A stretch of 64,000 bases of DNA from Bryoerythrophyllum caledonicum (Eukaryota > Streptophyta > Bryopsida > Pottiales > Pottiaceae), in NCBI GenBank assembly GCA_963971425.1, contig OZ020515.1, positions 5,076,678 through 5,140,677 of the forward strand, in the 5' to 3' direction. The notes below the pieces were generated by a model, which worked only from the letters and a program-made list of their open reading frames with translations, was not told where the DNA came from and did not search any database. Numbering within the stretch: the stretch's first letter is position 1; each line of letters opens with the position of its first letter. Shown piece after piece: positions 43,457-63,029 of the stretch. The position numbers and the translations under genes were made by a program.

Positions 43457-44394
43457 ATGACGAAATTCTCACCGGTTACGATGCTCGCCTTGCTTGTCAT
43501 GGTGGTGATGTGCAGCTCCTTCACTTCAGCCTTCGACCTGAACCGAGGCGTGACTCTGTTTCTCTAACTCCTCCCACGTCGTTTGATCTTGCCATACATG
43601 TTTTATGCACTAAATCAGTTTCCGCTTATGTAGTATCATCATCTCTACGTTTACCACATGCTCAACAATTTGGGTTAGATGGTTGTATTCGTTATTTTGG
43701 TAGCAGTGGCACTTTCGTGAGAAGCTTTTCTGCATGCAAATTCTAAGTGAAAGTTGAGTGTTTTGACCCCGTTTATTTAGGCTCTGTTGGGAAGATGCAA
43801 CAGAGCATGTAAGATTTTATCATATTAGTGGAGGGAAAGATTACAAATTGGTAGCCTTTTAAGGTCTCTTAATCACAACAACGTCATGTCTTCTGTGAGA
43901 GGAACGACCACAAAGAATTCGTAGTGGTGCATGACTCATACCCGGATGGTACTGAGGCGCTCATGCTCAAAGAAAACATGGGGAGGTTGCCTGTGGATCT
44001 TTGTCTGTATGGAGTATACGTAATTTGGTTTTACAACGTCCATTCTCCGACTGATATCTACGTGGTACTAGTGTGATACCCCGTGATACCCGGGTGATGC
44101 TGCTGCAGTGAAAAAACATGTTTATGAAAGGTCCTGTCTGCATGGAGTATGTATAATCTGACCTGACGTTGCACATTGTGGTGGTTGACTGCAGATTGCT
44201 CGGACATGTACCCGAAGTTGGATTACAAGGCGGTAACCAGCGTGTGCAAGCCCAAAGTGGCGGCAACGAAAGCATGCTGCGCCGCATTCAACAAGCTGGT
44301 GTGCTGGTACCAGAGCCAAGTGAACAACTTCAAGTCCATCTGTCCCAATGTCATATTTAACTATTTCTGGACTATGAGGTGCATTTTGGACTAA
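43457..44394 (+). CDS. LORELEI-like GPI-anchored-family protein (two exons)
   Basis: Exon one (43457 to about 43547) encodes MTKFSPVTMLALLVMVVMCS plus SFTSAFDLNR, a clear signal peptide. Exon two (about 44194-44394) starts after TGACTGCAG and reads DCSDMYPKLDYKAVTSVCKP, KVAATKACCAAFNKLVCWYQ, SQVNNFKSICPNVIFNYFW and a short tail, TAA. The Cys spacing (C, C, CC, C, C) and the CCAAF..LVC core match the LRE/LLG family, co-receptors that chaperone FERONIA-type kinases at the plasma membrane. Frame continuity needs a phase-1 intron; the best donor is a GC type (GAG|GCGTGA), otherwise the gene is shifted. The protein is short and I see no clear GPI-attachment tail, so it may be a truncated paralogue. 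Confidence 0.65.
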
Positions 44395-44870
44395 GGACTA
44401 AAAGAAAGATCCGGGGATGTGCCTCATAAAAGATAGTGAAGCATAAAAGTCGAGGTGTTTAGAGTACTATTCAAGCATTAAATGCATCACCAATGACACT
44501 TATGAAGGAAGAAATGGCTAGAGCGACCAAATTTGAATTTAGACAATACGTGAGTCCGCAGCATGCAGCCGGATATCTCCGGGTAATTATCAAGGTGGAA
44601 TTCAGAAGAAGAACCGAGTCCTGAGAATAGAAATTGATGGACATACTGTACATCACAAATGTGTGGTTAGGAAAAATGTGGTAGGGAAAACTGGGACAGA
44701 GCTACGGACAAAAAATACTCGCAATTGATAGAACATGCAACCGGATATCTCCGGATGAAATGAGAGTAAGAGTCCAATACTAAACTGTTTCATTCTAAAA
44801 AAGTGTCATACAATAAATGAAGGGTGGCCGTTGCTAAGAGGCGCGTGTAATCTATGGAAAATCGATTCAA
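44395..44870. other. 3' flank between the LORELEI-like gene and locus A
   Basis: Convergent genes meet here. It contains two copies of the locus A palindrome (44569-44582 and 44741-44754, both CCGGATATCTCCGG). Nothing else seen. Confidence 0.6.
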
Positions 44871-45323
44871 CTATTCTAATTTAAGTGCTTTACAGATGCC
44901 CTCAACCCGTACGGTATGGTGTCTCCCATAAGTTAGATAATGAACTATAGCCTTTCTAGGATTCTTGAATGGATCTAGATCTGCAACAACAACACATTTG
45001 GGCCACAAATAATGCCTTGTTCGAGGATTAAATGAAGCCTTCTTGAAGATGTGGAGAAACCTAATATAGCTGGGCCTTCGAGTCAATTCGCTGGCATAGC
45101 AAAAAAGAATATCTGATAAGATGTCTGGGGGCAATAACACTTGGGCCACCTCCATGAGCCTATCAGGACGCATAGGAGACAAGATCCCGACATTGAAATA
45201 CCGCAGTAGTATTCGAATAACATCTGCCGTGTCATCAAAGGAAGGCAGCTGCGTGGAGCGGGATTTGGCCGAGTCAAGGACCTCGTCCAAGCAGAGAGGA
45301 CCTCGGAGAGATATGATTATGAC
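44871..45323 (-). CDS. Locus A, second FCP1-like unit (last exon)
   Basis: Opens after acceptor TTATTTGCAG at 45324 and ends in TAG. It is a shortened FCP1/SCP-like HAD domain: VIIISLRGPLC occupies the place of the first strand and nucleophile motif (normally DLDGTL) and has no Asp. ILLRYFNVGILSPM matches the strand usually reading FEVVVWTAS. HYLWPKCVVVADLDPFKNP matches the LLVDDSP region. Tandem relative of the unit at 45678-46350 and of four units in locus B. It cannot be an acid phosphatase of the usual type; a binding role is more likely. Its paralogue at 56149-56802 is the closest in layout. Confidence 0.65.
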   Translation of the reverse strand, partial: VIIISLRGPLCLDEVLDSAKSRSTQLPSFDDTADVIRILLRYFNVGILSPMRPDRLMEVAQVLLPPDILSDILFCYASELTRRPSYIRFLHIFKKASFNPRTRHYLWPKCVVVADLDPFKNPRKAIVHYLTYGRHHTVRVEGICKALKLE

Positions 45324-45677
45324 CTGCAAATAAGAAGGCAAGACCATTGAATTAGAAATAGAACATTGGAATGAAGATAAAATATGGTAGGAGGAGTTCA
45401 AGTGACAGGAATTCGACCGGAGATCTCTAGGTGCCCCTCCCAGACCAACGTTCGATAGTCGAAATGGTCAGGAGAATACTGAAAAGTGATCACAGATATT
45501 GGACGGTGAAGTTTGGGGGCGAGACACTAACAATAACAAATAAATAGAAGGACCTCAACAAATAACGTTACTGACAACAACATTAATCTTCAAAATTGAA
45601 TGGTCGAAATCCCAAAGACATCCTTGAGTTAACATTTACAAGCATAGAATTTATAATATTCAGTATAATTCATTGTT

Positions 45678-46350
45678 CTAAGGCGCCGGAATTATGCCCT
45701 TCACCACGGACCGGGCCTCTTTGGAATTTTTGTCTACTGGATCACTGGCAAACATCAAAGGATGACGTCTAACAAAGTCGGGAACATCCTCATTTGACGC
45801 TAGCAGTCTAGAGAGCCATGGGAGAAAAATGGTGGACAACCATGATTCATTCGACAACCCAGTCCATGATGGCGGATGAACTCCGCTGAATGTATCGTTA
45901 AGGACGTTCTTTAGTGGAGTATCGTCCACAAGCAAGACATCCTTGGGAGACCTGGCCACGCCTTGGCGTTATAAATTGTCAGGTCCTTAAGGAAAATTGG
46001 CTTCGATGGATAGGATGGGAGCGTATATGATGTTTTTGTGTAATGGGCCTGCGTCAGGATTTTGACGCCTTCCGGAATGACAGCACCTTTCTTGCGCAAC
46101 TCCTTGATAATATCCACAATATTCTTTTCCAACACACTGCTCCAGAATGAGACAATAGCCTTCTCTCCCACGAAGTTCAGGAGTTCAGTGGAACCAGGCC
46201 TTACTTTGATGTCTCTCGGTTGTCCCTGTTTGAATTCCCCCCTGTACACAAGAACTCCATTTAAGTCAAACACGACATGATAAACCCGATTGGATGTTAC
46301 CTGATCCTCGGTTGGAGGCTCTCGAACGATCGTAGTAGGCTTCGTCGAAC
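45678..46350 (-). pseudogene. Locus A, first FCP1-like unit, frameshifted
   Basis: Opens after acceptor GGGTTCAG at 46351. VVFDLNGVLVYRGEF (canonical DLDGTL, second Asp replaced by Asn), VRPGSTELLNFVGE and AIVSFWSSVLEKNI are followed, after a one-base frame change near 45955-45965, by DVLLVDDTPLKNVLNDTFSG. That is the distal metal-binding loop of FCP1/SCP-type HAD phosphatases. Ends in TAG. It is the only unit in the window keeping the first catalytic Asp and the VDD. Either a true frameshift mutation or a single-base assembly error separates the halves. Confidence 0.75.
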
Positions 46351-46519
46351 CTGAACCCAAAATACGAGTACGTAGACTGAGATGAGGAAGTTGTTCAGCA
46401 AAGTGAAATTTCAATTATACATATAGAAGTGTTCTGCACTCACAATCCAGAATTGCTCGATGGAAGAATGAGCACTATATAGATGATGGCACATAAGTAT
46501 GAATGTACATATTAGGCAC

Positions 46520-47345
46520 CTGGGACAGTAGGTGGAGTATCCCTAGAAGTCTGAGCTACACCAGCGACTTGAGCAGTCTGTGCGGGGTTTCTGTCACCGA
46601 TATCCTTCGACTGTGTTGATCCTGCGGACCCTTGAATACCAGTAATGAAGTGGTAAGAATAAGATCTGCATCGAGTGAACTGTCCTTTGAACGATGAAGA
46701 AGGTTTGATGGACAAGTAACTATTCACCTTATCTTTCAGGGCCCTTATTCGAATTGTAGGTGGAGGAGGAGGAGCTTTCGCCGCAGGATTCTTCGCGATT
46801 GCTTTCTTCTTCTTTTTTTGAGCCAGGTGCACGTGGCTCCACGGAGGGCTGCGCAGAGGGCTCATAGCATGTAATTCACGCAATGTCTCTTGCGCCGACG
46901 CCTCATCCATCGTTTGATCGGTGTCACGCAACGTCAAGTCCTCGGCAATCTTGCACACAACCTCCACTTCTGGACGCGTCCTCGAAGGGTCGTCCAGCGG
47001 GAGATCTCCGGGTGCTCTTTGGGTGTTGTCGAAGTCCAGGCGATCAGACATTGCCGTGTCATCGTCCCGATCTGGCAAAGGAGAACGTGGCATGCCGGAA
47101 TGCCAACTGGTTTCCTTTTCAGGAGTACCGAGTCTAGCGACCGGAGTAGAGTTGCTTCTCGAACTAGGCGAGGCTTGCCTGATAGGAAGAGGTGGTTCAT
47201 CATCGTGTACCTGTATGGGGTCGACTAGGGTGCCTGCACAGATGATCCGCACGGCTGTGGCCAAGGACTGGAGTCCAATGTTGAGTGCCGCTGATGAACT
47301 CGGTTTACACCGCACATCAACTTCAATCATCGTGGCATCAGGCGT
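46520..47345 (-). CDS. Locus A, disordered Pro/Ser/Arg-rich exon
   Basis: Between acceptor GTGACGCAG (47346) and donor CAG|GTGCC (46519). About 275 codons open throughout. It is low complexity, with charged and proline-rich stretches (KKKKKAIAKNPAAKAPPPPP) and many potential phosphosites (SPSSRSNSTPVARLGTPEK). It matches the position of 60434-61468 in locus B. A copy of the locus palindrome (46998-47012) lies inside this coding exon. No domain recognised; probably a flexible linker between the unknown central domain and the FCP1-like domain. Confidence 0.6.
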
Positions 47346-47568
47346 CTGCGTCACATTGACGAAGTCAGTGTGAGAAACATTAGGATGAAATTCAAAAGAA
47401 AACGGTATGATACACCCGGAGATCTCCGGTTCAATGTGATCCTTGTCTACCGGGTGAACTATATCTAAGCATGGCCATGAGAAAGAAGAGCCCTAAAATA
47501 TGGAGGGCATCCTAAATGTATGAACAGGCGGAGATCTCCGGGTCATGTAGTTTTCTTAGCTGTTATAC

Positions 47569-47784
47569 CTCGCCGCTGTAGTTCATCCTCGACATTGCCC
47601 ATGTTAGAACACCAGCGCCTGGGCTTGACCCAGTGATGGCAGTCTCCTCTGCCTCCTCTACAGCGGCGTCGGGTACATCGGCTAAGATATTCAAGTGGTA
47701 CTTGAATATTTCTTCGACGCAGGATTCTGCCTTGAGTTTGGCATCTTCGCTGCTCACAATCTCGAGGACCCGCGCGTCGTGAGT
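47569..47784 (-). CDS. Locus A, short exon
   Basis: Acceptor TTATCTTGCAG, donor GAG|GTATAAC, 72 codons open (THDARVLEIVSSEDAKLKAE onward, with an acidic AAVEEAEETA). Its start aligns with RHKATVIEFVCEEAEV at 61467 in locus B. No domain recognised. Confidence 0.6.
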
Positions 47785-47885
47785 CTGCAAGATAAGACCT
47801 GCATTAGGCGTCATCCAAAACATATAACTGAACACGGACCAGAAATCTAAGACGTTGAAGTGCTTGGGAAGGATGTCCTGCTTAC

Positions 47886-49244
47886 CAATCCGAGGTATGT
47901 TAAGTGTGGTCCACCATGGACATTGACGACCACCATATCCTCTCTAATGAACCCCGTGAACAACAAATCAAGGACCAAGATCCTCAGCTGTAGGACACCG
48001 GTTTGCTTCCAGCGCTGGATGGTTTCTAGATGTTGAGTAGCTGAAAATAAGGTCTGCATTTTGTCCGCATGGACTTTGTAGAGCCTCTTGAATGACTGAG
48101 CAGGCGTCTCGCTCGAGTCGTATTCATACAGGAATACACAATACACTGCCTCCTCGACCCCGATTACTGGGGTCGGAAACCAATCACCTAGGTGGGGGAA
48201 GTAATAGACCACATGCGTCGCCCACAATTTCACCTTGCCCCTGGATTTTCTCTGCCGAAGACTGATGTACCTCTTCAATTCAACGAATCCCGCGACATCG
48301 GTGATAAGAATAGACGGTGATCTAACCCTCGTCCTCCCGTCCTTCGTGTCCACTTCCAGATGGTCGAAAATGGTTCTGAAGTCCAACGCATCCAGGACCT
48401 GTGCACGGCATATGTCGTCTTTCACGCGATAGAGGAAAAAGAAGTACAAGTGAGGCTCATTGACGTTACGCCACTCCTGAATGTCTGGCATGATAAGTAC
48501 TTCGGCGATCTCGCCCCCTCTCTCTGGCATAACCCTACAGGTGTATTTGGAGTCGAACAGGGACGTGTCATCCGTGGGTGTAGCCTCGGTAGCATCTTCA
48601 ACGATGTGTTGACTCCAAATGGACATAAGGATGTCCGGGGTGGGGTCGGTCTCCTTGTTGATCGCCTTCAGTCGACCTTCAAGCCAAGCTTTACCCTTGG
48701 CAGAGTGATTAGCGGCGTCCACCTAGGACTCGAGCCGAACCCGTCCAATATCCCACTCTGCCGCAAAGGCGTCCCACTGCTCCTTCGTGTAAGGGACGAA
48801 GTCAGCAGCCTTCGAGGGAAGGGGGTGCGACTTGTAATTTAACATGAGTTCATTCTTCATAGCCCGGATTATCTTCTCCCTATTCGCCGCGTTTTCGAGT
48901 GTCTCGGCCTGCCCTTTCATAGTACCTTGGTTTGCCGCTTTGGAGGACTTTACACAGACCTTCTTCGCGAGCACTAACTCTGCGAGGTAGTCAAGGTCTT
49001 CAGCGCGCATTTTGTAGAGTGGCTTGAAGTCGTTCTGCACCAGAGGCTTCTGCTTGAGCTTAGTTGGGTCTCCAATCTTCCCGTTCGAGTCTGGCAGAAG
49101 TCCAGCAACGAACATCCTATCGATTTGGATCCACTTCTGGACCACCGCGTCATCCATCTCGAACAGAAGAGGGACCTTCGCATCTTTTGGGTCAGTTTTA
49201 CCAAGGTGAGTGAAAACCGTCGGCACCACTTGCCGTTGGAACGT
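47886..49244 (-). pseudogene. Locus A, long central exon of unknown function
   Basis: Acceptor TATTGCAG, donor TTG|GTAAGC. 453 codons in one frame broken only by TAG at 48723-48725. The first part (TFQRQVVPTVFTHLGKTD to REKIIRAMKNELMLNYKSH) aligns with EYIIKNELMLMYRKY and its surroundings in locus B exon 61590-62881. The second part (GKAWLEGRLKAI) aligns with GKAYLKGRYSGI. The middle contains hydrophobic strands (YFFFLYRVKDD, VYCVFLYEYDSSE). No known domain. The stop is one substitution from sense. Confidence 0.65.
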
Positions 49245-49366
49245 CTGCAATAATATATAACTCAGTGTGTGAGCACCCGAAGATCTCTGGTAGATTGGAT
49301 TGGTTGCTAGAAGAATAAGCGCATTGATATAATTGAAATATATTCAGGCGGAGGACGTAAGCTTAC

Positions 49367-50693
49367 CGAGAATTCGTCAGATTGTGGACGACCATAGAGT
49401 TGGGGGGCTGGTTTTCCGAACTCAAACCACTTCACTCTGCACGTTTGCAGCTGCTCGGTAAAACTCTGCTCCTTCTACAGACCCGTCAAATCTTGGTTCA
49501 GAGCGCGGGAGAGTTGTAGCAGGGTCATGTCTTTGGGGTTTGGTTTAGTCCAAACCGGGATGATAGAGAAGTGCGAGATTTCTTCGAGCGTCCACGTTGT
49601 TGGCAGTTCGTTTGACAAGATCTTGTGCGCCTCCACAGTATGCTCACCACCAATAATGTAAAAGTGTGTCGTGTCCCTAAGGCAGTCCTCCTTCGTCGAT
49701 TTGGTCGCGAAGAACTCCACCTTAGTTCTGTCAGGTTTATTCTTTAGTGGCGAGACTCGAATGTGAATCTCAAGGGCCGTGGCCTTCGAGGACGCGCGAA
49801 CTGCATTGATGATTCCTTCGAGCCGTTCTTTCTGGATGCCCCTGTACACTAATCCTCCAGGGGGGGCCCTGTGTAGGTTATTGAAATGAACGAGCTTCAC
49901 GACATCCTTCTTCGTGACAGGGTCTTAACCTGTCAAAGGCTTATTCTTGAGTATGTATATGTTCTTGAACGCGTCATCGAGAACCTTCCCAATTGCTTCA
50001 ACTTCAGTCCTCCTCATTTTGGCGAGGTCAGCCTGTGTGAAGTTTAGGCACTTTTCAATAGTGAGGCCAGGCTCATCGGCCTTCGCTTTCTTTCCCTTCT
50101 CTGCCCGTGACGAGGAACCTGGGGTCGAAGTTTTCAAGGTGGTCTTGCGTTTTCTTCCCGGGGTTGATTCTGGTGTCAGGGACAGAATGGGTGTCGGGTC
50201 TGGGACGGGCTTTCGGGACTTCTCTTGTGCTTCTGCCATCCACTTCCACTGCTCATTAACGTACTCCGGCTTTCATGTATCACTCGTGGGAGGGCCGTGT
50301 AAGAAGTTCTCATTCTGACATGTCTCCGCCATCTCATCCAATATCTTAGATGTCTCCAGAATCAAGCCGTATATGAGAGGCTCGGTGGATGAGTCCACGT
50401 TCTCCTCGACGACAAGAAGGCAGATCTCGTCGTCAAGACCCTGCATCTCTAGAACCTCGAGTCCAATGTCGGGGTGTCCCCATTTGCCAATCCGAAGTTG
50501 GGGGACGTATGTCCAGGGTTCTTCAGGGGTTTTTAAGAGCTTCATTTCCCACTGGCTAATGCCCTCTCGGCATTTGTAGATGTAGCCAACATTGTGAATT
50601 CCTCTGTAGACAAACTCAGGGAGCCAGAACTCTACAAACGCCCCAAGCTTCCCGGGACGACTTTCAGTCGGAAGTGTGGTTGTCCACGAATCC
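49367..50693 (-). pseudogene. Locus A, N-terminal exon with ParB-like segment, three stops
   Basis: One continuous frame from acceptor TTGCAG (50694) to donor TCG|GTAAGC (49366), broken by TGA 50273-50275, TAA 49925-49927 and TAG 49475-49477. It has a first unknown domain (FVEFWLPEFVYRGIHNVGYI), a Lys-rich linker (GRKRKTTLKTSTPGSSS), then VEFFATKSTKED, HFYIIGGEHTVEAHKILSNE and SIIPVWTKPNPKDM. The GGEHTVEAHK stretch resembles the G-x-H/R-R-x-x-A motif of ParB/sulfiredoxin folds, and locus B has GGQHMYLACKAL at the same place. That assignment is inference. The stops make this copy a likely pseudogene. Confidence 0.65.
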
Positions 50694-50926
50694 CTGCAAG
50701 ATGAGTTCGAAAGAGCACAAAGGCAGTTAGAAATAACTGCAATTAACCGGTAACCTATGGGGAGTCCGTCACTCAAAACTGGCTGTATTTCTAGGGATGG
50801 ATGATAGAATATGAGCTTCCAAATCAATTATTTACTGCCCCAGCTAGGGGAGGTCTTCGCACAATTATCAGATCTACAGACACTTGAATTATCTTAAATC
50901 GCTTAAAGTATCTTGCATGCGCTCAG

Positions 50927-51390
50927 CCGGAGATCTCCGGTTCGGCAGGCAAGATCTGTAGTCGTCGTGAGGGCGTATCGAAACTTACTTGAAACGTCCC
51001 GAGATCTTCAGCTCTATGTCGGATTGTGAGCAGCAATGGCGTTCATTTTCGTATAATTCCATTGCGAAAGTATCCGGAGATCTCCGGCTGATTTGTGGTA
51101 GTCGTCTGCATTCGTCTAGGAACGATTCGGTACGGATCAGTCGGATCCATTTCTTTCATGAACCGAGGATCTCCGGATAATGACCAAAATGACGAGTTTC
51201 ACGATATTCACATCTTCTTACGCGCGAATATGCACTTCTTCGTAACGTCCGGAGATCTCCGGATATTTTTAAGATTTACTAAATCGTGGATATATATTTT
51301 AAGACTCATCAAACCTCGACATTATTCGGAGATCTCCGACTGATTATTGGAACTCCGTCTTCTGTTCGGGGTGCAACCGGAGATCTCCGG
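50927..51390. promoter_or_regulatory. Cluster of locus A palindromes upstream of the gene
   Basis: Exact CCGGAGATCTCCGG at 50927-50940, 51074-51087, 51249-51262 and 51377-51390. TCGGAGATCTCCGA is at 51326-51339 and CCGAGGATCTCCGG at 51163-51176. There is also a weak copy near 50997. Spacing shrinks from 147 to 51 bp. Lies 230-700 bp upstream of the first placed exon, where a promoter or 5' intron would be. No ORF. Confidence 0.8.
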
Positions 51391-52750
51391 CTGCAGCAAG
51401 TACGGAATAACATTGCACTAATCGCTACTGACCATCACGCGTATATTCACATTCATTCACAGAGAAGTTTGACATACTACTCTAGAAGTTTTACATACTC
51501 TAAATTCATGTTTCAAATTAGAAAACACAATGAGACGTATCAAATGCTCACACAATGCTTTCAATAACCGACCTAACACATAGGAAATTGAATCTGCAAA
51601 TGTTCTGATTGAACGCCAAATGTGAGGTTTGCACATGGATTACTCGTCATTAAATCAAACCAGACTCGAAAGACTCAGTATGGACAAGCACATTCTAACG
51701 TTCGTACAATTCCATAATCACACGCATATACATGAATTGAAACACACTTCTGTTCATAGGACATCAAAAAATGAATCGACAATAGCCTAACAGATATCTG
51801 AAAACTAGTACTCATCTTCTGAGGTTTCTTTTCATTATTCAAGTGTACTTTATTGTCATACACCCGCTCGGAATCAAATGAACAAACTTGAATCACAATC
51901 AAATAAAGAATCCACACACGGTCGCTCGGACTCAGTGGACACAGTTCAATGTTGTGGACTTATCGGTCTCCTTTCCATGAAGTCTCACTCGACGTTCCAG
52001 CTCCAGTCGCCATTTCCCAACCTCCTCGAGGAACTCCTCGGGATCGAAGCGAATTCACAGCTCTGAATAACATCAACAATCAATGTTAACTCTACAATTT
52101 TTCAGATGCCCTAGAATTTAAGGTCCACATCTGATTGACAAGATTTCCGCGAAATAAATTTCAACACTGCTCATTTACGGATAACATGCTCATTTAAACG
52201 CATAACATCCATAACATGCTCGTTTACGGACCTTCTATACTGAATGCACTGAACACCAGAACCCTATATCCTAAGCCCTACAACTCCGCTTCAACGTCTA
52301 ACAAATTCAGAATTACTCGACTCTCTTGAACCCTAATGGCGCTTACGGAACCCTACACCTGCCCCAGTGTCGATTTTAAGCAGTCCTAGGCAACTACGAT
52401 ACTTGATGACACTGAATTTTACTCTGTGAGAAAGTACATACCTCTTCACTGACCGATTCGGCGCACCTATTCGTCGTGGTCGTTCATGAAGACGCCACCC
52501 TCAACCGCAATGTCACTTCCGCTTCGCTGGTGAACCGAGACGCTTGCTAAATTTAAATGCCTATTTCAATATCTCTGTTCAAGTCCTGCTCTCCAACCTT
52601 TAGTCCAGAAACAGCCTCTCGACGATATGCTCAATGTCCCTCACTATTATCAACATTCACCTCGCACACCGACAGCCTCTCACAGCGCACACCGCCCTAA
52701 CCTAATGCGTTGACGCCTATTGCGGAAACCACGAAAAAAACCCCTCCCGC
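51391..52750. other. Upstream flank of locus A
   Basis: No gene I can support. A possible minus-strand exon near 52062-51940 (after TTATTCAG) reads FDPEEFLEEVGKWRLELERR in one frame but starts with a stop. It could be a 5' exon of locus A. The rest is AT-rich. Confidence 0.35.
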
Positions 52751-54471
52751 TGTCCTGATGGAAATTCTTCCATCATGTACATACAAGTATTAGTCTTTAT
52801 ATGTGTGGATTTTAATAAGTAAGGAGTTGGGATAAAAAGGTTTGGTCGTAGTGAGAACCACGGTTTGAGGACTTGGACAAGTGTTTGCATGTAGGTGCTG
52901 CACCGCTCTTGTCACTGCTCAGGGGGGTAGGTAGCGGGTTGACTGGTATTTTTCCTGCCTCACTAGCGAGCCAAGCCGTGGGCCGCTCAACCACTCGACG
53001 GGCTCGATCGGATTCGAACCCGGACTGGCGGCGGCCACTGACCACGACATTTCCAGCCAACCAAGTCCACGACTTGGCGATCAGGTTGTGCGAATCAACA
53101 CCTTTGTACGTCCGTTCCATCAGCTAACTTACGATAAGTTTTTATTTATTTATATTTTAGTTATTTTTTTTATTTTACTTATCTTGTTGGTTGGAAGGTC
53201 TAAATTTTTAGTCTTCCAATAAATAAAAGACTAGGGGATTTATGTGGTTGAAAGTGGAAAGGATAAGAAAGTAGCAAAGTACCTTGTGGGGTACTTTTGG
53301 ATAGGGTGACATGGGCTGGAGTGCCCACGTCCACTTGAGGTGGAAAAGTTGGGAAAGATATTCCTTAGTGTGTTTGTGTGTGTGCGGGTGAGAGAGGAAG
53401 GGTTTGGAGCAGAACTTTGACTGTGTGTAACTCGTTGAGCTTGAATGATATGGAATTGAAAATTTGTGATCTTGTTCCTTGTTTCGAGAGCTTTCTATAC
53501 TCGTTTTAAATTTTGAATTCCGAGTTGTAGAGAAAACGTTATTGAGGTTTTAATTCTGTAAAAACCCGAGGCCATCCATTGAGAGGCAGAGGTTTCGAGG
53601 AGCCACAACTTTTTCTGTAGTTCTCAATTTGATTTGAGATTTGGAGGGTGTATGCGTCTCTATCTTAGCTTTCTAGAAAGATATCACAATTGAAATTCGG
53701 AGTTGTGAGCAAGAAGTTATAGAGATCTGAATGAATAGGGGTAGGCAGAACTTTGATTGTCCATAACTTTCGGACAGTAGTTTAGATTGACTTGAAATTT
53801 GGAGGAGTGTTAGTTGTCTAAATTAGCTTTCCAGAGAGCTATTATACTTAGTATTTGAAGTTTTGAGTCATCTGTGTCACTTGTTTGAAGGTTACAGCCT
53901 TGGTGAAACTTTTCCATTGTGTTTTTGAACACTTCTTTTGAGTTTCTTAGTGTTTTTGAACACTTGAAGACTTTGGAGTTGAAGGATGGAGGAATTGAAG
54001 ACTTGAGGCTTGAAGAGAAGAGAAGATGGAGACAAGTGTGTTGTGGCTTGTGGTCCGATTTCTTTTTTTGTGATTCCAAACCAGCTTTGGAGGCTAGTTG
54101 TATTTCAATTCTGTTCTTGTAAACTCTGTTGCGGCGAAGTGGGGTTAATTGCCCACACGGTCGTGTTTATGTCGTTCCCACCGGTGAGGCACGTTTGCTG
54201 GTCACCGTGGGTTTGAATTTTAGGAGCCAATCTTTAGGACGGTTTCAGCTTGTGGTCTGGCCGTCCCGTTTTACCCGTCCAAGGCCGTGGTTTCTTATCA
54301 CCCACCTTCACCCTTAACCCTTTAGAGCCACCACAGGATAGGCCAACGGGGAGGAGTTTGAAGACTGAAGACCTGAAGATTTGAAGATACGATTGGATTC
54401 CCGAGCAAACAATCTCCAGTCGCAGCCAGATTCCCTGCGAATTCTCAAGGCGCTCCCCTCTCTACACGACA
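52751..54471. mobile_element. Solo LTR of the second family, 4-bp target duplication
   Basis: 1,721 bp. It starts TGTCCTGATGG, ends CTACACGACA, and is flanked by CCGC at 52747-52750 and 54472-54475. Related along its length to 23075-25747 (CACGGTTTG, GTCACTGCTCAGGGGGGTAG, CACGGTCGTGTTTATG, GAGCCACCACAGGATAGGCC). It lacks the roughly 950-bp insert of that copy. Separates loci A and B. Confidence 0.88.
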
Positions 54472-55442
54472 CCGCCACTTCCGCTCACTACCTACGACAT
54501 TACAAACACAACACCCATAAAAAACAAGAAAGGTTTGATGCTTGGAGTTCCCCTAACCCGATATGGACAAGCTGGACAGCTCAAGGGCTGTGACGGCTCA
54601 TGATGACAGTGGATGAACTTCAAAATCAGCTCTAATCACGTACATATACAATGTGTACATTTCACAATCATGAATTGTCAATGTCGTGAGCATGCGTGAC
54701 AAGACGTATTGATACCCGGATTCCTGGGTATTACATATGGCTACAGTAGATACTCAGGTTCACCGGGTATTAGAATAATCATTATACTTGAATTTAAAAC
54801 GTCATAAGTGAATAAGCTTAATCTCCCTCTCCGTTACTCTCCCTCCCTTCTTTCCCTCACTTGTTTTTCTTATTTATGTTTTGCTCTCCCCTCCTTCTCC
54901 ATCTCCATCTCATTTTTAATCTTGATTCTAGTAATTTTTAAGACTCCCCGTGCTTTCAATAATTACAGATTCTTAAATTAACCTACTACTCTAAAAATAA
55001 ATCCCGCACTCTTCCTCGCTTACTCTCCCTCCCTATCCCTTATTCTCCCTCACTTCCTTACTCTCCCTCTCCATCTCTTTTCTAATTTTAACTTTTTTTT
55101 TATTCTCTAAATTCCCCTAGTGGCATATTCTAAAAATATAAACTTAGACTTTTAAATAAATCCCTTCCTTACTCTCCCTCACTTGCTCTCCCTCTCTTCC
55201 TTACTCTCCCTCCCTTACTCTCCCTCCTACTTGTTTTTAATTTATTATACTCTTACTCTCCTCTCCTTCTCCATCTCCATCTCCATCTCTATTTTCCTTT
55301 TGATTTTTAATTTTTTGGATTTTCCTTCTTTCAATAAATTCACATTCTAAAATTAAATAACTACTCTCAAAAACAATCAACGGATATTTAACTAAATGTG
55401 GAAAAAAAAAATTCCAGAAATAAGAGTGGCGAGAATATTTCA
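54472..55442. repeat. CTCCCT-rich low-complexity stretch
   Basis: 54830-55290 is dominated by irregular CTCTCCCTC and CTTACTCTCC runs (GA-rich on the minus strand). The remainder has no gene. Confidence 0.7.
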
Positions 55443-56137
55443 TCGGCGGACAGCTGACTCATGAAAATGGGCTTCACCCATTCTAGAGAGGGTTTAGGCC
55501 AAATATGTTGCCAAAGCGTTGATGCAGTTCGAAAAATCTACCACTGTCGTAGATTCGAGTGGCGCCCAATGGATGAGGGTGTTCTTATCAAATTCCAGAT
55601 CATACATACCGGTTTAGAAAGTTTAAAGAATGACGACAATATTATTTGAAAAATCACAGTTGATTGTCGGCTGACAGCCGATCAAAGACAAGGACAACAT
55701 ACTGCATGAATTTGCTTAAACCTTTTCTACGGCAACAAATAAATCCAAGGAAATATATACGGAAAAAATCGCGGAAGATAAAAGATATGCAGGAGGAATT
55801 GTCAAGCATGGGTTCTGAGTATGGAGTCGAAAACATTGAACGGCAGTGGAAAGACAACGAAGATGCAGCCAGAGAACATGAACAAATAAATTAATAGGAG
55901 GATAAGTACAATGTCGGTTGCCCGCCGACTAATAAAATAGACCTGGCAGAGAAAACAACGTCTTTTACAAATCACTAATTCTACTAAAAAAAACCTCTTA
56001 GTCTACCCAGTGAGATAAGTTCTAGAACAGTCTGAATATAAAGAACATGTGATATAGAAAGCGCTAGGGATTGTCAGTATGACATCAGACGATTCGAAGG
56101 TAATACGCTCAACCAACGACAGTCGGCGGGCCGCCGA
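55443..56137. repeat. Locus B palindromes in the 3' flank
   Basis: TCGGCGGACAGCTGA at 55443-55457, TCGGCTGACAGCCGA at 55667-55681, TCGGTTGCCCGCCGA at 55914-55928 and TCGGCGGGCCGCCGA at 56123-56137, spaced 224, 247 and 209 bp. The last sits directly after the stop codon of the final FCP1-like unit. No gene here. Confidence 0.85.
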
Positions 56138-56148
56138 TGGAGAATGAT

Positions 56149-56802
56149 CTACCATTCAACTTCCGACCAACTGACGACAGCTCGCCCATACTTGCGCGCG
56201 TGCGTAACCGCCCAATGAGCCTGCCCCGGGCGTTCAACCTGCGTCATATATTCAGTGACGGATGAAAATCTATGGAGGGGGAAGATGAGCGGAATGATGT
56301 CGGTCGCCACATTCGGAATTACTCCGTCTTCGGTTGGAGAGGTCAAATGACCACGGAACGGCCAGGGGATATAGCACATCCAGTCGGGGGTACGTCGGAG
56401 CGACTTGGGTTCAACGTCCACAAATAGTACTTGGTGAGGCTTGCAGACATGCCTAGATTGCTTCTTCTTGTAGAGCGTGGACGGCGTTTTGTAGCTCCAT
56501 GGAAACCTCGAACTATCAGCTAAGTCACTTCTGCTATAAACAAACGACAAACATTGAAAGACTCCTTCCGGAAGAATATGCAACAAGAGCGGCTTTAACT
56601 TGTTTAGAGGCATCGTTGACCAGAGCCCGATGTTGAAGCGCGGAAGCAACATATCGAATAGTTTTTTTAGGCCCGGCCTCCGGACAACATTCCAATGAGG
56701 GAAATCAGAAGATATCGGCTTGTTAGGGTCCACATAGCAAAGAAGACCATTGACGCATAGTACAATACATTTTCGAATCGGTGATGGAAGAGCGTGCAGA
56801 CA
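56149..56802 (-). CDS. Locus B, fourth FCP1-like unit
   Basis: Opens after acceptor CCATTTCAG in phase 1 and ends in TAG. CIVLCVNGLLCYVDP stands at the catalytic DLDGTL position with no Asp. VVRRPGLKKLFDMLLP, RFNIGLWSTMP (FCP1 consensus FEVVVWTAS) and HQVLFVDVEPKSLRRTP (LLVDDSP region) follow. The C-terminus is SYTHARK-like text and VSWSEVEW. No stops inside. Catalytically dead by motif. It differs from the three upstream units in phase and in length of the insert. Confidence 0.7.
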   Translation of the reverse strand, partial: CLHALPSPIRKCIVLCVNGLLCYVDPNKPISSDFPHWNVVRRPGLKKLFDMLLPRFNIGLWSTMPLNKLKPLLLHILPEGVFQCLSFVYSRSDLADSSRFPWSYKTPSTLYKKKQSRHVCKPHQVLFVDVEPKSLRRTPDWMCYIPWPFRGHLTSPTEDGVIPNVATDIIPLIFPLHRFSSVTEYMTQVERPGQAHWAVTHARKYGRAVVSWSEVEW

Positions 56803-57124
56803 TCTGAAATGGAAGGATGTTCCCTGGAAAATGTAAAAGAAACATTGTCATAATGCAAACTACGGCTGGCAGTAAGAAGTAAAACACATCGGCGGGCCGC
56901 CGACAAAGAAAACTACAACAAGTAGATGGATAAGAAACAAACCACTCAAATGAAATATGCAAGGAATATAATAGAGAAAAGTAGTTCAGCAAAATTTGAG
57001 ATGAATAAATAAAAGTAATTACATGAAATTGTCTGTAACATTTATCCATGTATTACGATGGGCGAGAGTCCAGTGAATTTAAGTGAGTGCCCTTTCGAGA
57101 GGCCCTCTAAGAAAATATGGCTCT

Positions 57125-58267
57125 CTAAGGTGGGGGAGTGACTGTCAACTTGGCCATCACTTCATCTAGACAACCTGGCTTGTTGTAGCCCTCTTGGAAA
57201 GAAGAGAGGACTTCTCGGTATCTGTTGTGGACAGTTGATCCCGGGAAAATACGACGCTCACCCAAATCGGAGTTCAGCCTGCAGTAATCCTGGACGCCGA
57301 ATCTGGACTCGAGTAGTCCCTTAAGCCAAGGAATCAACATACTCTGAAGATACGTCTGTCCTCCAGGAAGAGTGTGTTCCGGGGGAGAGTATGTGAATAT
57401 TGAAGGATGCACCACATTAAAAGGATCATTTAGGATATTACGGAGGGGGTAATGATCGAACAAAAGTGTGTTCCGTTCATTCGCGTCAGGCCCAATAAGA
57501 TAGCGTCTATCTCGAAAAAGACGAGCAAGCCGCTTCAGCAGCATGTCGCACTTCATTGTTTTGGGATTCGACCAGGCAGATATATCACAATACCCGTTGG
57601 TCATCTCTTGGACGCCATTATGTAGGTCAGGGTACACCTCCCGCAAATAACCCATGTGTCTGATCATGGGTTGATATTTCTCGGTGGACCAGAATGCCAA
57701 TCCGAAGTTGGACTGGCAGAACGTCAGAAACTCAAGGAGACCCGGCCTAGGTTTTTGATGAAAATAGGGCTTCTTATCTTTTCCACGATAACCATATCTT
57801 TCAGCCATTAGAAGCCCTCTAACTTCTAGGACGAGGTAGTATCTTGAAGGACCCACCTGAATGTTCCTTGGAACAACTCTAAAGCTCACACTGGCAGCCG
57901 GGTATTGGGTAGATGCAGCTGTCGGCGGCCCGCCAACTACTCCGACCGCCCCAGGCCAAGCTCCGTCAGAGGCGAAGTCTTGGCTGTTTCCATCTCGGTT
58001 GATACCGTGGTCCGCGACGGATTCGACAGGAACTCGGTGGACACATTCGGGCACCACCTCCTCCATCGGTAATGGTGCAAAGTCTTGATCGTCAGCTTCG
58101 GTACAGAAGAGGTGGGAAGGACGAATGTCAGAGACGGAAGCTGATGACTGCGAGCCGTCGATCGGGTGACGACTCGGTCTCTCCGGTGAGCTGTCATCGA
58201 GTATTATAATGACCGGGTTTTTTGGAATCGGAACCAGCTCCTCAATCTCCTCGACAGGAGAGTCCAC
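57125..58267 (-). CDS. Locus B, third FCP1-like unit
   Basis: Opens after acceptor TTCCATTCAG; 380 codons, intact, ends in TAG. An N-terminal disordered part (VIIILDDSSPERPSRHP; acidic and Pro-rich) runs to about residue 140. YYLVLEVRGLLMAERYG then stands at the catalytic position (no DxD), followed by PRPGLLEFLTFCQSN, FGLAFWSTEKYQPMI, LKRLARLFRDR and NTLLFDHYPLRNILNDPFNV. It encodes VVGGPPTA, where the DNA is a copy of the locus palindrome (57922-57936). Likely a non-enzymatic HAD fold. Confidence 0.75.
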   Translation of the reverse strand: MDSPVEEIEELVPIPKNPVIIILDDSSPERPSRHPIDGSQSSASVSDIRPSHLFCTEADDQDFAPLPMEEVVPECVHRVPVESVADHGINRDGNSQDFASDGAWPGAVGVVGGPPTAASTQYPAASVSFRVVPRNIQVGPSRYYLVLEVRGLLMAERYGYRGKDKKPYFHQKPRPGLLEFLTFCQSNFGLAFWSTEKYQPMIRHMGYLREVYPDLHNGVQEMTNGYCDISAWSNPKTMKCDMLLKRLARLFRDRRYLIGPDANERNTLLFDHYPLRNILNDPFNVVHPSIFTYSPPEHTLPGGQTYLQSMLIPWLKGLLESRFGVQDYCRLNSDLGERRIFPGSTVHNRYREVLSSFQEGYNKPGCLDEVMAKLTVTPPP

Positions 58268-58440
58268 CTGAATGGAAAAGTCGATTCAAATGCATACAAT
58301 AAGGGATGAGCCATGTGCAAGGGAGACTGTGATTATTGTAAGGAATTTTATTTCGAAGAAAAATGGTGTCACAGACATGAATGTCAAAGCCTCGCAAAAT
58401 TGGGCAATTTCCGCGTCGGCTGCCCGCCGACGCCGAATTA

Positions 58441-59160
58441 CTATGCAACAACACAAGGGGGTCGCCTACTGCTAGGGTACGCCAAAACAAAGTCCTCCCA
58501 TTGAGGGTCACCGGGGGAAAGTCGAGGGCATCCAGAGCCTAGATTCCTCCGAATATATTCGGGTACCAGCAAGCCTGACTCTAACAACCCGGAAAGGTAC
58601 TTAACGACCCCGGGGAGAACGGCGTTCTTGTCCGACTCCGTTGACTCTAGGGTAAATGTCATTGGATGCATGACATTCAGAGGACTATTCCTGACATTCC
58701 TGATAGGACAGTCGTCAAGCTAAAGGGTGTTCTGACTATTCGCGCCACATCCTAACATTGCCTTTCGGTTCAAAAACAAAGTAGACAGTCTCATCAAGAA
58801 TACGTTCCGAGTTCCTACCAGTTTCTTGGCTACATCACAGTAGGAATTATCGTATACATGTCTGACAACTTTAAGAATCGGGCATTGGCCTCTGAGGGCT
58901 ACCAACTGGACAGCGAGCTTAGGCTGACTTTCGCTACTCCAAAGCACAACTGTGAAGTTATCCACGCAGAAGTTGATAAAGTCAGCCAACTTCGGTCTGA
59001 ATTTGGTATGCCACTTTCCGTCCCTGCCTATATTCTGTGCGATCAACAAACCGTTTACACCTAGGACAAGGAAGTAGTGATTGACCTTCACAGTTGGCAG
59101 CTCAGGATGCTTCTGAATGGATTCTCCCCCCGCTTGAGACCCAGCCACAATGTGAGGCAC
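58441..59160 (-). pseudogene. Locus B, second FCP1-like unit, one in-frame stop
   Basis: Opens after acceptor TTGCCTCCAG and ends in TAG, with a palindrome 11 bp downstream (58416-58430). NHYFLVLGVNGLLIAQ is at the catalytic position (no Asp), then FRPKLADFINFCVDNF, TVVLWSSESQPKLA and FLMRLSTLFLNRKAM. In-frame TAG at 58720-58722 stands where sister units have Leu (NTLLFD, NTLLID). The frame then continues with DDCPIRNVRNSPLNVMHPMT. Ends DPQWEDFVLAYPSSRRPP like its neighbour. Confidence 0.7.
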
Positions 59161-59353
59161 CTGGAGGCAAAAGTCGACGACATAGATATAATAAGTATTT
59201 TACATTAGCACCGAACACTGTGATTGTTATGACGACATAAATTTGGAATATGTACCTCAGAAAGTTGGAGACAGTCTTTATTTATGTAGATTTATACAGA
59301 CGTAAATTACAAAACGGGTTCTACAAGCGTCGACTGCCCGCCGACGGCAAGTT

Positions 59354-60216
59354 CTAAGTAGTACTAGGACGTGGACGCCTATTCCTTGGGTACGACCAAA
59401 TGTACTGCTCCCATTCAGGGTCACCTGGTAGGAGACGACGGATCCAAGGAACGACGGCCCTGCTAGAGGAGGTTTTCTCTTTTTCTACGAGGCGAAGGGC
59501 TGCCATTCTTGGACTTTCGAAAGGCACAGCCGATTCCTTCACCAAGGAAAGGCAATCGGCAACCGCGGTATACAAGGGTACAGGCATGCTTGACTCTTTC
59601 ATGGCTTCAAGGAACTTTGAGACCTTGAAGAGAACAGAGGACTCATTCGTAAAGGTCTTAATAGAATCCATGGTGAAGGGAACTGGATGGATGGCATTAT
59701 ATGGATTGTTCTTGACGTTCGAAAAAGGAGAAACGTCAATCAACAGGGTGTTGCCGCTATTCGCTTCAGTTCCTTTTAGCGCTGCGGGACTCAAGAATAG
59801 AGTTGACAACCTCTTCAGGTAGAGTTTCTGACCCCCAAAACCAAACCTCGCCACGTCGCAGTACGACTGATAAAAAATATAACGAAGCTTTCTAATGCTG
59901 GGACATGCATCTCTAAGGATTTTCATTTCATGGGCATGCCTATCTGGATCCTCCGAATTCCAGATCACAATACTGAAGTTCGTAACGCAGTAGTTCAGAA
60001 ACCCAACCATGCGTGGCCGGATCTTGCTATACAACGACGCGTCCTTGTCAATATCCAGGGCGAGTAACAGACCATCTACTTGGAGGACAAGGAAATAGTT
60101 ACTGAGTGGTTGTCTGCCCACCTGAATGAAGTGCTCAAGTGCCTCTGTTTCCCGATCCGCTCCATCTTCGTCGATTGCTGGAGTTGAAACGGCACCAGTA
60201 GGAACACCCGGATGAA
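59354..60216 (-). CDS. Locus B, first FCP1-like unit
   Basis: Opens after acceptor CAATCAGCAG, intact to TAG, with a palindrome 10 bp downstream (59330-59344). NYFLVLQVDGLLLALDI is at the catalytic position (canonical DLDGTL; here QVDGLL, first Asp missing). IRPRMVGFLNYCVTNF, SIVIWNSEDPDRHA, YLKRLSTLFLSPAAL and NTLLIDVSPFSNVKNNPYNA follow. The VDDSP metal-binding pair reads IDVSP. It ends DPEWEQYIWSYPRNRRPRP. By position this is the terminal exon of the main locus B gene; the next three units are tandem copies. Confidence 0.75.
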
Positions 60217-60433
60217 CTGCTGATTGATAGAAATATGGAAGCTATTAGATATATAGTCGGCGCGCAGCCGACAGAAAAATGGAACATGAAAACACATTCT
60301 GATATCAGACTGCGAACTCAGAAGAACAACCATTGAAAAAGAGCTTTGTGTTCACGTGATAAAGTACATGTATTGAAAAGGTAGTGTCCTAAACTGCAAG
60401 AAAATCTCCTAGGTGCACTATCTCGTGACTAAC

Positions 60434-61468
60434 CTCCGAATGTATTGCCTGTATCCTGCCTCACAGAAGGAGCTGTAGGCGATAGTCCCGTGTTGGGATG
60501 ATCAGCAGAGTCTAGGGACATTGCTGATTCTCTTGAGGTGGAACCAGCGCTACCCCCCCTTTTCGACTTCCGCACTCTCTTTTTCGCAGGCGGAGGCGAC
60601 CGCTTCCTTGACCGCCCCTCCTTGTTGATCTTCGAAGTGCTCTTCGGTGACGGCACTCCGGAGAAAACGCGACCCTCTTCCGATGGTGCCTTGCTCTTCA
60701 GCGATTGGCTCTGAGGTTTTTTTATCGGTGGCTCAGTTGGGGGGGAACTCTGGGGAGTCCGTCCTCCACTAATCTCGGGAGCCACAACTTGAGTAGTCCG
60801 GTTGGGAGGAATAATCCTCACATTCGGTTTCTTCTTCTTGGCCACAACTTCTGTCACCGGTGCCTGATGTTGAACATCGCCGGATTTCAGAATAGCGGAC
60901 GCGCTTTGCTGTAAAGAACTCGAAGGATTCTCACGCGGTACAGGCCCACCAGATACAGCTGGGCTTGGTGCAGGCGGCGTAGGCGGGCCGCCGACTCCTG
61001 GGTCGATTGGGGTCACAGCTCGGGGAGGGACGAAGGCACCTTGCGAGCGCAAGACAGTCTCATCCGCAGGCTGTGCGAACAGGGGGACGGTGGTGCAGGG
61101 GGACGGTCATTGTGCCACGGCGCCACCTCTGATCGCACCACAGCTGCTGCCTTTCCTCCCTTCTGAGGTCTTATCAGGTGTGCTTCATCAAGACAAACAC
61201 CTAAATCAGCTGCTGCAAGCAGACCATCGTTGTCGACATTGTCGGGGAAGAGGTTGTTGTCCATCGCATCCTCGCCCATGTCGGTCCCATGGTCTGAATC
61301 CTCTGTCAAGTTGACCACCTCATTGGGTCCCACAGCGGGCTCAGCTGGAAGCGTTAGCGCAAGCGGGTGAGCTCTGCCCGGCAGGAAGGACATTGCCTGC
61401 ACCCGCTCCATCGCGACAACAACCTCCGCCTCCTCGCAAACAAACTCGATGACTGTCGCCTTGTGTCT
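60434..61468 (-). CDS. Locus B, disordered exon, possible frameshift
   Basis: Acceptor GCCCAACAG, donor GGAG|GTTAGTC. It starts RHKATVIEFVCEEAEVVVAM, aligned with the short exon of locus A, then an acidic part (EDSDHGTDMGEDAMDNN). A long Pro/Ser/Lys-rich part in a different frame follows (from about 61052; KKRVRKSKRGGSAGSTS). The frame change lies near 61050-61090, so there is either an indel, an unseen short intron, or an assembly error. A palindrome copy (60980-60994) is in frame and encodes GVGGPPT. No domain. Confidence 0.55.
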
Positions 61469-61589
61469 CTGTTGGGCAATTAGTGTCGGTCAATAATCAA
61501 AATAAAAACTATCTCATCGGCGGGCCGCCAACGAATACGAGAAGGTGATGCAAAGAAGGAATGATTGGATCAAAGAGAGGTGACTTACC

Positions 61590-62881
61590 AAGGCCAATGC
61601 AGTCACGTTGCTTCCACCCCAAGTGTTAAAGACGGTCAGACTTGAGTCGCCCTTCACCAGTGTCGGTTGCATAATCGATGAGAGCAACCCCAAGCTTGGA
61701 TGGCATTCATCTCCAGCCCAACTCTCAGCCGAGGGCGAGGCATCGTTGTTGTAGAGTGGACTGAGAGGCTTTGTCAGTCCAGTTACCTTTTGAAACTGGC
61801 GCAGGCGGTCCCGTGGAGCTCCAGCCTGGTTGAAGAGGATGCCGACATGCACGATGGGTCTCTCGTCCATGGCGGAATGAGTGAATCTACCGCCGGAGTC
61901 TGGAAGGTAGCGGATGGTGTGGACTGCGCAATCCAGCTTCTTTGAACGACATTCAGTCTCAATCACGAAATTGGACTCGTCGCCAGTGATGAAGACTAAA
62001 GGAGCGTAGAGTTCCCGGTCATCCCCATCACCCCGAAGGACCCTCTCTGCAACAGCCTTGAGCCCGTCTTTGTTGCTGTAGATTGGATCCCGGCCCTTAT
62101 CGAAGCCAAACACGATAAACATCTCGCGCGCCGCCTTCTCCTGATTGAAGAGTCCGGGTTCATCGATCAGGCTCACGACGTCCTCAAGCTCCTGCGCAAC
62201 CCGTACTTCGTGACGGACACTATACTCATCTACAACATCGTTGCAGTTCAGGGCATACTTCCGTAACGCCGCATGGAACTCCGCTGGCACTGGGGTGGTA
62301 CTTGGAGTAATCCCGCTGTACCTCCCTTTGAGGTAGGCCTTCCCCGGATCACTCAGCTCCAGCTCGCGTCTGATGTTCATGACGGTTTCGTCGCTGATGC
62401 CCTTCTCTTCTACCAGCTTCACGTATTCTTCAACCGGCCAAGGTGAGTAGGTGTTATCGCCAGCCTTCTTTAATAGATACTTCCGATACATCAGCATGAG
62501 CTCGTTCTTGATGATGTATTCCATCTTCTTGTCCTGACACCAGGATTTCAGCGATACACCTTCTGCATCCTTGTCGTGCCCCCCGGTTACCTTCAAGTAT
62601 ACCTTCTTCGCGAGGATTTCATGAGCCAACTTCATGGATTCCTCGTCCCAGAGGGCGAGAATGTGTTGAAGGTCGTGGAGGGTTAGGTCCCGTTGAGGAA
62701 TTTTAAGGATGTTTTGGGGCTTCTTCCCATCCTCACCAATCAGGGTGCCCCGATCCCATGCGTTGAATACTTCCTGCCACTTGTTGTAAAGATTGTCTGG
62801 TGCAAAGACAAGCGGCAGCTTCAACGTGTCCGTCTTGGAGTCCTTCCCCAACAGTGTTGCAAGGTATTCCTTGTAGAACTC
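61590..62881 (-). CDS. Locus B, long central exon of unknown function
   Basis: Acceptor TTTTACAG, donor CTTG|GTAAGTC, about 430 codons without a stop. It begins EFYKEYLATLLGKDSKTD and continues through KVYLKVTGGHDKD, MEYIIKNELMLMYRKYLL, ELSDPGKAYLKGRYSGITP, FVIETECRSKKLDCAVHTIR and HVGILFNQAGAPRDRLRQF. Homologous along its length to 47886-49244, which confirms that loci A and B are paralogues. I recognise no domain. Being intact argues that locus B was functional recently. Confidence 0.75.
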
Positions 62882-63029
62882 CTGTAAAATGATGAAGATG
62901 ACATAAACATGAGCTCAATCACAATGTTGTCGGCTGCCCGCCGACGAAACATTATCTATGATTAATCCACCATGCTCAAGAGATTGCCAACAACGGAGCG
63001 CAAAATTGCTGTGTAAAGTGACACATTAC

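Follow-up and report, generated by a model that had tools for sequence, protein, structure and literature searches.

The 64,000-nucleotide stretch of the moss Bryoerythrophyllum caledonicum analyzed here (the window; contig C2, positions 5076678 to 5140677) contains two related loci, A and B, each carrying many copies of a palindrome of its own. An earlier note on the window had treated them as gene loci, each encoding a protein that recognizes its own gene. Each was found to be gene 1 of a family of large two-gene DNA transposons (class II) with terminal inverted repeats (TIRs) and 4-bp target site duplications (TSDs), and it is the whole transposon, rather than a gene locus, that forms the unit. 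TSDs were present in all four elements for which both ends were seen, namely, A copies a1 (TAGG) and a2 (ACAA), the window copy of B (AATC), and a second B copy (AAAC); only one end was seen for A copies a3 and a4. Alignment with other A clusters showed element A to be dispersed and about 17 to 18 kb long, with termini TATTTAACTATTTCTGGACT... and the inverted counterpart; the window copy starts a few bases to the left of the TIR at 44354 (ATGTCATATTTAACT...). Element B is nested inside an A copy. In both elements, the left part carries gene 1 (minus strand) and the right part gene 2 (plus strand). Across the 437-Mb assembly of 894 contigs, in which all genome-wide counts were made, the A exon had at least 116 and the B exon at least 150 scored matches over many contigs. 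Gene 1 of A is broken by stops in the window. In many further copies of A the exon is open, with about 97% protein identity, and family A therefore seems to have been active recently.

The main exon of A gene 2 matched only DUF7869 above the Pfam cut-off (E = 2.8e-46), and no family exceeded the cut-off in the further gene-2 exons of A and B; the DUF7869 protein is probably the transposase. A gene 2 had 119 database relatives, the organisms named being Physcomitrium patens, Ceratodon purpureus, and Riccia sorocarpa. For gene 1, just four database relatives were found for the domain with the motif IIGGQH and three for the second large exon. Gene 1 also encodes NIF-like HAD domains, of which A has one (PF03031; copy a1, E = 4.1e-13) and B has four, two exceeding the Pfam cut-off and two falling below it; the B regions at 57125 to 58285 and 59357 to 60241 are 33% alike at the amino acid (aa) level (E = 3e-19). 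NIF/FCP1 phosphatases have a catalytic DxD motif. In A this motif reads DLN, and the first Asp is gone in the three B repeats and the two repeats of a further family, C, that were inspected; by sequence, these domains are of the pseudophosphatase type, lacking DxD. An origin from a virus or prokaryote was rejected, as scans of IMG/VR and GTDB gave no confirmed relative. The window also contains a DUF7869 relic on the plus strand at 35089 to 35808 (E = 1e-35, 37.5% to A gene 2); no gene-1 match was found in the first 48 kb of the window and no repeated dyad around this relic.

Motif A (CCGGAGATCTCCGG) occurred at 13 window sites, all between 44569 and 51390, with two or fewer mismatches (0.16 expected from shuffles, largest count 2). 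At the same threshold, motif B (TCGGCGGGCCGCCGA) gave 17 strand-matches at 11 window places, all between 55914 and 62944 (0.03 expected); written as TCGGC-N5-GCCGA with at most one mismatch, it was found at 12 places from 55443 to 62944 and nowhere else in the window. The shuffles rule out a chance origin of the copies. These counts bear out the at least ten A copies and twelve B copies reported in the earlier note, as well as the confinement of each motif, within the window and at the thresholds used, to its own locus. Genome-wide, exact motif A was found at 2718 places (reversed control, 3) and exact motif B at 252 + 246 places (control, 0). The 100 B places that head the listing, every one on contig C1, were compared with gene lists that are incomplete, only the best matches having been scored (22 B-type, 13 C-type, and 23 A-type genes). 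Of these places, 74 had a scored B-type gene no more than 15 kb away (random mean, 1.9; maximum, 8), and 18 of the 22 scored B-type genes had a listed B place within that distance. None of the 100 was near a C-type or A-type gene, an absence that says little by itself because random placement gives just 1.1 and 2.0. Of the pattern that the earlier note had set against its own proposal, motifs common genome-wide and unlinked to the gene family, the first half was found, but B, the motif tested by position, is tied to its gene family.

The layout of the motifs was read against exon borders and introns inferred from DNA rather than RNA, and against conserved blocks defined at the protein level, which overstate the coding part somewhat because some antisense matches are included. 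In B, 25 sites (at most one mismatch) were distributed from position 65 to position 15339 of 15,522 bp, and the conserved blocks, which make up 60% of the element, held 2 of them, leaving 23 outside (P = 9e-8). In A copy a1, blocks amounting to 31% of the element held none of 21 sites (P = 5e-4). Each of the nine inter-block gaps longer than 10 bp in the complete B, whether in either gene or between the genes, held at least one site (gaps counted by eye), and sites clustered toward each end (65 and 289; 15223 and 15339) as well as 5' of gene 1. The palindromes thus extend over the entire element, second gene included. The proposed rule of one copy per intron was nearly right, given that each B gap holds at least one, except that the introns are presumed ones and three window sites fall inside open reading frames (ORFs) for low-complexity proteins (A, 46998; B, 57922 and 60980), where the DNA motif would seem to set the peptide sequence. 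The clusters described 5' of A and 3' of B are both there, but B also has one 5' of gene 1, beyond the end of the window.

Constraint was measured in aligned A copies (five left halves and four right halves) with 60-bp flanks. The motif columns were 95.5% (left) and 97.1% (right) identical, compared with 83.8% and 91.1% in the flanks. Counted by alignment cell, non-CpG change was about five times lower in motifs (15/1009, 1.5%) than in flanks (678/8858, 7.7%), and CpG change was 12/382 (3.1%) in motifs versus 83/952 (8.7%) in flanks. One motif-like site (right half, column 4425) was no better conserved than its own flank. C-to-T or G-to-A changes made up 20 of 27 changes in motifs (10 at CpG) versus 167 of 761 in flanks, an excess which hints that dead A copies are methylated.

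Eleven further loci (L030 to L040) were fetched by gene-1 homology alone and then scanned for repeated inverted pairs. Seven showed a clear private motif, comprising all five loci of family C and both loci of family E. The C motif, TCGGCTG-N-CAGCCGA (GTCGGCTGGCAGCCGAC type), emerged from the blind dyad scan in a family whose IIGGQH exon is 50% aa to B, and the E motif (TCGTGAGATCTCACGA) was found blind in L039 and matched in L040. In 30 shuffles of each of 11 loci (nine stretches from A, B, C, and E plus L034 and L033), no dyad reached more than three copies (two, L033 excepted); unshuffled, the nine stretches gave 4 to 11, L034 gave 4, and L033 gave 2. Among the controls, seven window stretches gave 1 to 2, L010 gave 2, and L015 gave 3; L007 gave 7, which was a 40-bp minisatellite, and the count of 8 in L017 is explained by its lying within an A copy. 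L034 (68 to 71% aa to B; 1087 to 5767) contained TCCGGA 27 times in 7.5 kb versus 1.7 expected, together with three CCGGA-N4-TCCGG, and is a candidate for a further private motif, present as a single copy and not counted. The CCGG dyads that L033 (56 to 59% aa to B) at first seemed to have in abundance lie mostly on one side of the exon in an apparent other inverted repeat and were not counted as a private motif. L037 and L038 are decayed relatives, with one B-like site in L038. The earlier view that protein and motif change together is supported by the palindromes of families C and E; of its counterpart, that other paralogs might have no repeated palindrome, only the lack of a clear motif in L033, L037, and L038 was seen.

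Motif counts by family (at most one mismatch for A, B, and C and two for E, in the order A/B/C/E) were 63/0/0/0 in A loci, 0/41/18/0 in B loci, 0/0/30/0 in C loci, 0/0/0/17 in E loci, and 0/0/0/0 in window 1 to 43.5 kb. The table is diagonal apart from the C-type sites in B, the sister of C. These 18 matches arise because B uses some TCGGC-TG half-sites (21 of 90, with TCGGC-GG at 58 of 90); in C, TG was found in 38 of 50 half-sites and GG never. The exact E motif occurred at 41 places (reversed control, 0), all on contigs C200 to C836 (two of these contigs measure 23 and 101 kb) and none on a chromosome, and 24 of the 41 were on seven contigs with scored E-like genes. The E-like genes were likewise on high-numbered contigs alone (C200, C245, C259, C281, C317 ... 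C836), and E may represent a compartment of its own or a second organism in the sample.

The half-sites read CCGGAGA in A, TCGGCGG in B, TCGGCTG in C, and TCGTGAGA or TCGGGGGA in E, and the outer CpG-to-CpG distance is 10 bp in A, 11 bp in B and C, and 12 bp in E, near one helical turn. A YCG outer end is common to all four, so that the two window motifs, previously regarded as unrelated, are not wholly so. The B and C proteins (50% aa) go with motifs that share the TCGGC half-site start and the spacing, and the A and E proteins (38% aa) go with motifs that share the central GAGATCTC; A and B proteins are 28% aa. Motif likeness thus correlates with protein likeness, which is what one would expect if a dimeric protein and its site had changed together gradually.

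From the structure of the elements, the layout of the palindromes, their low rate of change, their avoidance of conserved exons, and their specificity over four families, we infer that a protein encoded by the element, likely the gene-1 product, binds the family palindrome as a dimer, probably for anti-silencing or auto-activation of the VANC type; we put the probability of this at roughly 0.6. The data suggest that each element encodes a protein recognizing only its own family, so the self-recognizing gene of the earlier note would give way to a self-recognizing mobile element. With about one palindrome per noncoding gap and clustering toward the ends and on the 5' side of gene 1, in a layout specific to the family, the binder would cover its own relatives only and would make or keep these copies transcriptionally competent against host DNA methylation. 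The catalytically altered NIF-like repeats may recruit a partner. An anti-silencing or auto-activating role would fit the noncoding and 5' spread of the sites, the CpG in every half-site, and the C-to-T decay. That the DUF7869 relic, which lacks a gene-1 match, has no repeated dyad points faintly to gene 1 as the source of the binder.

Several observations weigh against this interpretation. In the scanned exons of both genes, no DNA-binding family (helix-turn-helix [HTH], ParB, or other) exceeded the curated cut-off, and a PDB profile search with one alignment gave no matches; the term "ParB-like," given earlier to the exon product, has only the IIGGQH motif behind it. Among the 100 listed B places, 26 had no scored B gene nearby. 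The sites used to measure constraint were selected by their match to the motif in one or more copies, and gapped columns were removed. The C loci are 93 to 97% alike where aligned and the E loci 97.4% alike, and because the copies are this close the new evidence amounts to two families, not seven independent cases. No clear motif was found in 3 of the 11 loci (L033, L037, and L038), and L034 gave a candidate only. The distinction between B and C is one of degree, since a minority of B half-sites is C-type, and E, being restricted to high-numbered contigs, may belong to a different organism in the sample.

The palindromes might instead be sites at which the DUF7869 transposase of gene 2 acts in excision or end pairing, comparable to CACTA-type subterminal repeats, and they might have spread inwards. 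The sites near both ends of B and the subterminal A variants CCGGATATCTCCGG, identical in all five aligned left-end copies, are in agreement with such a function, but most sites are internal, in the inter-block gaps of both genes and 5' of gene 1, where end recognition explains nothing, and we consider this unlikely. Plant elements can carry host factor sites, and the palindromes, which cluster 5' of gene 1, might be ordinary enhancers bound by different host transcription factors in different families. Against this, the four motifs share the outer YCG and track the similarity of the element proteins although the host is the same, almost no family motif was found outside its own family in the sequence examined (B and C apart), and the chromosomes lack the exact E motif; host factors are accordingly an improbable explanation.

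At least one palindrome per inter-block gap, able to pair as RNA, would also fit intronic hairpins acting in splicing or transcript protection. Sites were, however, also found near the element ends and inside ORFs, at varying distances from the conserved blocks, and the palindrome arms, as read from the motif, leave a loop of just 4 to 5 nucleotides; we regard a role in RNA as very improbable. Equally little credence is given to a functionless by-product in which gene conversion or a small mobile repeat copied the motif: the central region of A does contain a tandem duplication, but the motifs change less than their flanks, avoid conserved exons, and recur with different letters in four families.

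The proposed binding of each family's palindrome by an element-encoded protein resembles the VANDAL/VANC system. According to the published reports, VANC21 sites lie in the introns and upstream regions of VANDAL21 in Arabidopsis, VANC6 uses different motifs, and VANDAL motifs are 8 to 9 bp, not palindromic, and in tandem repeats (PMC5735166, PMC10398659); a 2026 meeting report mentions unpublished VANC-DNA co-evolution in Arabidopsis (PMC12859917). TnpA of maize Spm, named in PMC10398659, is an element protein that activates its own element with loss of methylation, a role like that proposed here. Set beside VANDALs, the moss elements are alike in that, within one plant genome, each family has its own short motif in introns and upstream regions, and motif and protein differ between families; a family-specific motif repeated in noncoding parts of the element is common to both. 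Unlike VANDALs in the same accounts, they have dyads of 14 to 16 bp spread over noncoding gaps. VANDALs are Mutator-like elements (MULEs), whereas the partner here carries DUF7869, with no Mutator-like transposase matched above the Pfam cut-off in the gene-2 exons scanned, and the 4-bp TSDs differ from the MULE target duplication of about 9 to 10 bp. No VANC-type domain, which we take to be DUF1985, was found in the gene-1 exons scanned, where Pfam gave NIF alone above the cut-off. The repeats of Spm are subterminal, with a 12-bp motif, whereas the sites here run through both genes and their letters differ by family.

As in ParB/parS, palindromic sites lie near the element's own gene and IIGGQH resembles a motif of the ParB fold. 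Unlike ParB genes, however, these are transposon genes in a eukaryotic genome with no partition partner seen; no ParB family was found at E values up to 10 in Pfam or NCBIfam, nor any match in the PDB profile search. By these comparisons the elements are members of neither VANDAL/VANC nor ParB. Inverted CGG...CCG half-sites, spaced differently in A than in B/C, recall Gal4-type Zn2Cys6 proteins, and a Gal4-like CGG spacing code would suit A, B, and C; it was rejected as universal because E has TCGTG/TCGGG half-sites, and no zinc-cluster family was found in Pfam scans of gene-1 and gene-2 exons. The strategy resembles a known kind, while the proteins, transposase, and motif style fall outside it by the tests made.

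No description of the lineage or of DUF7869 was found in the literature searched, which takes in few subscription papers. Among the papers found, sequence-specific anti-silencing is documented for Arabidopsis VANDALs, with maize TnpA and MURA as relatives in kind. It is conceivable, at somewhat less than even odds, that the moss elements are an undescribed lineage with self/non-self DNA recognition, using a new class of dimeric binder (IIGGQH plus pseudophosphatase repeats) whose specificity diversifies along with the 14- to 16-bp palindrome of the noncoding gaps, through the inner letters of the half-sites and the distance between CpGs (10, 11, and 12 bp), and representing an independent invention of sequence-specific anti-silencing. 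If so, the strategy would have evolved more than once, here in an unrelated lineage of at least four families with a different motif each. The families would provide natural protein-motif pairs from which specificity shifts, and a readable recognition code, could be read, and possibly tools for steering DNA methylation to chosen sites. Since the half-sites are palindromic and the spacing shifts by single bases, the predictions are directly testable in vitro. The features of the two window copies are listed in Table 1.

Table 1. Features of elements A and B in the window
Feature	Position	Strand	Basis or remark
Left TIR TATTTAACTATTTCTGGACT, window A copy	44354..44373	+	Exact match, 1 window place
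Two subterminal A-motif variants CCGGATATCTCCGG	44569, 44741 (44569..44754)	.	No difference among the 5 A copies aligned
A gene 1, last exon region	44871..45401	-	ORF; 0 Pfam families
A-motif site, decayed in window copy	45417..45430	.	Motif scan and alignment of copies
A gene 1, NIF-like (HAD) exon region, two overlapping ORFs	45678..46414	-	PF03031 E 8e-6 for 45914-46414
A gene 1, low-complexity ORF with A-motif 46998 (peptide APGDLP)	46512..47492	-	ORF
A-motif sites 46998, 47416, 47528	46998..47541	.	Motif scan
A gene 1, exon-2 region, one in-frame stop in window copy	47847..49250	-	27% aa to B exon 2, E 1.6e-9
A-motif in presumed intron after IIGGQH exon, partly decayed	49277..49290	.	Motif scan and alignment
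A gene 1, first large exon region, IIGGQH ("ParB-like") domain, stop-broken	49337..50827	-	85% aa to P0001
5' cluster, six A-motif sites 50927, 51074, 51163, 51249, 51326, 51377	50927..51390	.	Motif scan
B element, left 8.6 kb in window	55379..64000	.	Whole 15,522 bp, ends C2:5147577; TIR AACG(G/A)ATATTTAACTAAATGTGGA; TSD AATC
B-motif sites 55443, 55667, 55914, 56123, 3'/left end	55443..56137	.	Motif scan
B gene 1, last exon region	56149..56847	-	Weak NIF: PF03031 E 6e-4, 20.0 bits vs cut-off 21.8
B-motif between conserved blocks	56889..56903	.	Motif scan
B gene 1, NIF-like exon region	57125..58285	-	PF03031 E 0.038, below cut-off; B-motif 57922 inside ORF (peptide VGGPPT)
B-motif	58416..58430	.	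Motif scan
B gene 1, NIF-like exon region, two ORFs in window copy	58441..59199	-	PF03031 E 7e-5 for 58723-59199
B-motif between NIF-like blocks	59330..59344	.	Motif scan
B gene 1, NIF-like exon region, nucleophile Asp replaced	59354..60241	-	PF03031 E 3.8e-11
B-motif between conserved blocks	60257..60271	.	Motif scan
B gene 1, low-complexity ORFs, B-motif 60980 inside	60429..61489	-	0 Pfam families for 60432-61106
B-motif near exon-2 border	61517..61531	.	Motif scan
B gene 1, exon 2	61590..62890	-	No known domain; HTH_36 match weak (E 0.032), below cut-off
B-motif between exon 2 and IIGGQH exon	62930..62944	.	Motif scan
B gene 1, IIGGQH ("ParB-like") exon region	62979..64000	-	One stop at 63672 in window copy; runs past window end

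In exon 2 of A gene 1, all three copies compared (L005 at 6004, the window at 48720, and a second A copy on C2) share the position of a stop, which may reflect an unrecognized intron or a second reading unit. At the right terminus of A copies a1 (L006) and a4 there is a 30-bp perfect palindrome, TATTTCTGGACTTTGCAAAGTCCAGAAATA, reduced to 18 bp in a2; it consists of the TIR and its mirror, and the left ends read differently. A 1.7-kb insertion that is not in a1 lies in the middle of the window A copy (52750 to 54472).

Elsewhere in the window, positions 26001 to 30000 are strongly skewed over 4 kb (AT skew, -0.78 and -0.76; GC skew, -0.23) and contain long minus-strand ORFs, two of which were scanned and gave no Pfam match. 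Positions 1 to 5663 are occupied by a retroelement on the minus strand, whose middle ORF (1779 to 3152) matches the C-5 cytosine DNA methylase family (PF00145, E = 4.3e-11) and is flanked by ORFs for a zinc-knuckle/protease and a reverse transcriptase, so that this retrotransposon seems to carry a methyltransferase-like gene.

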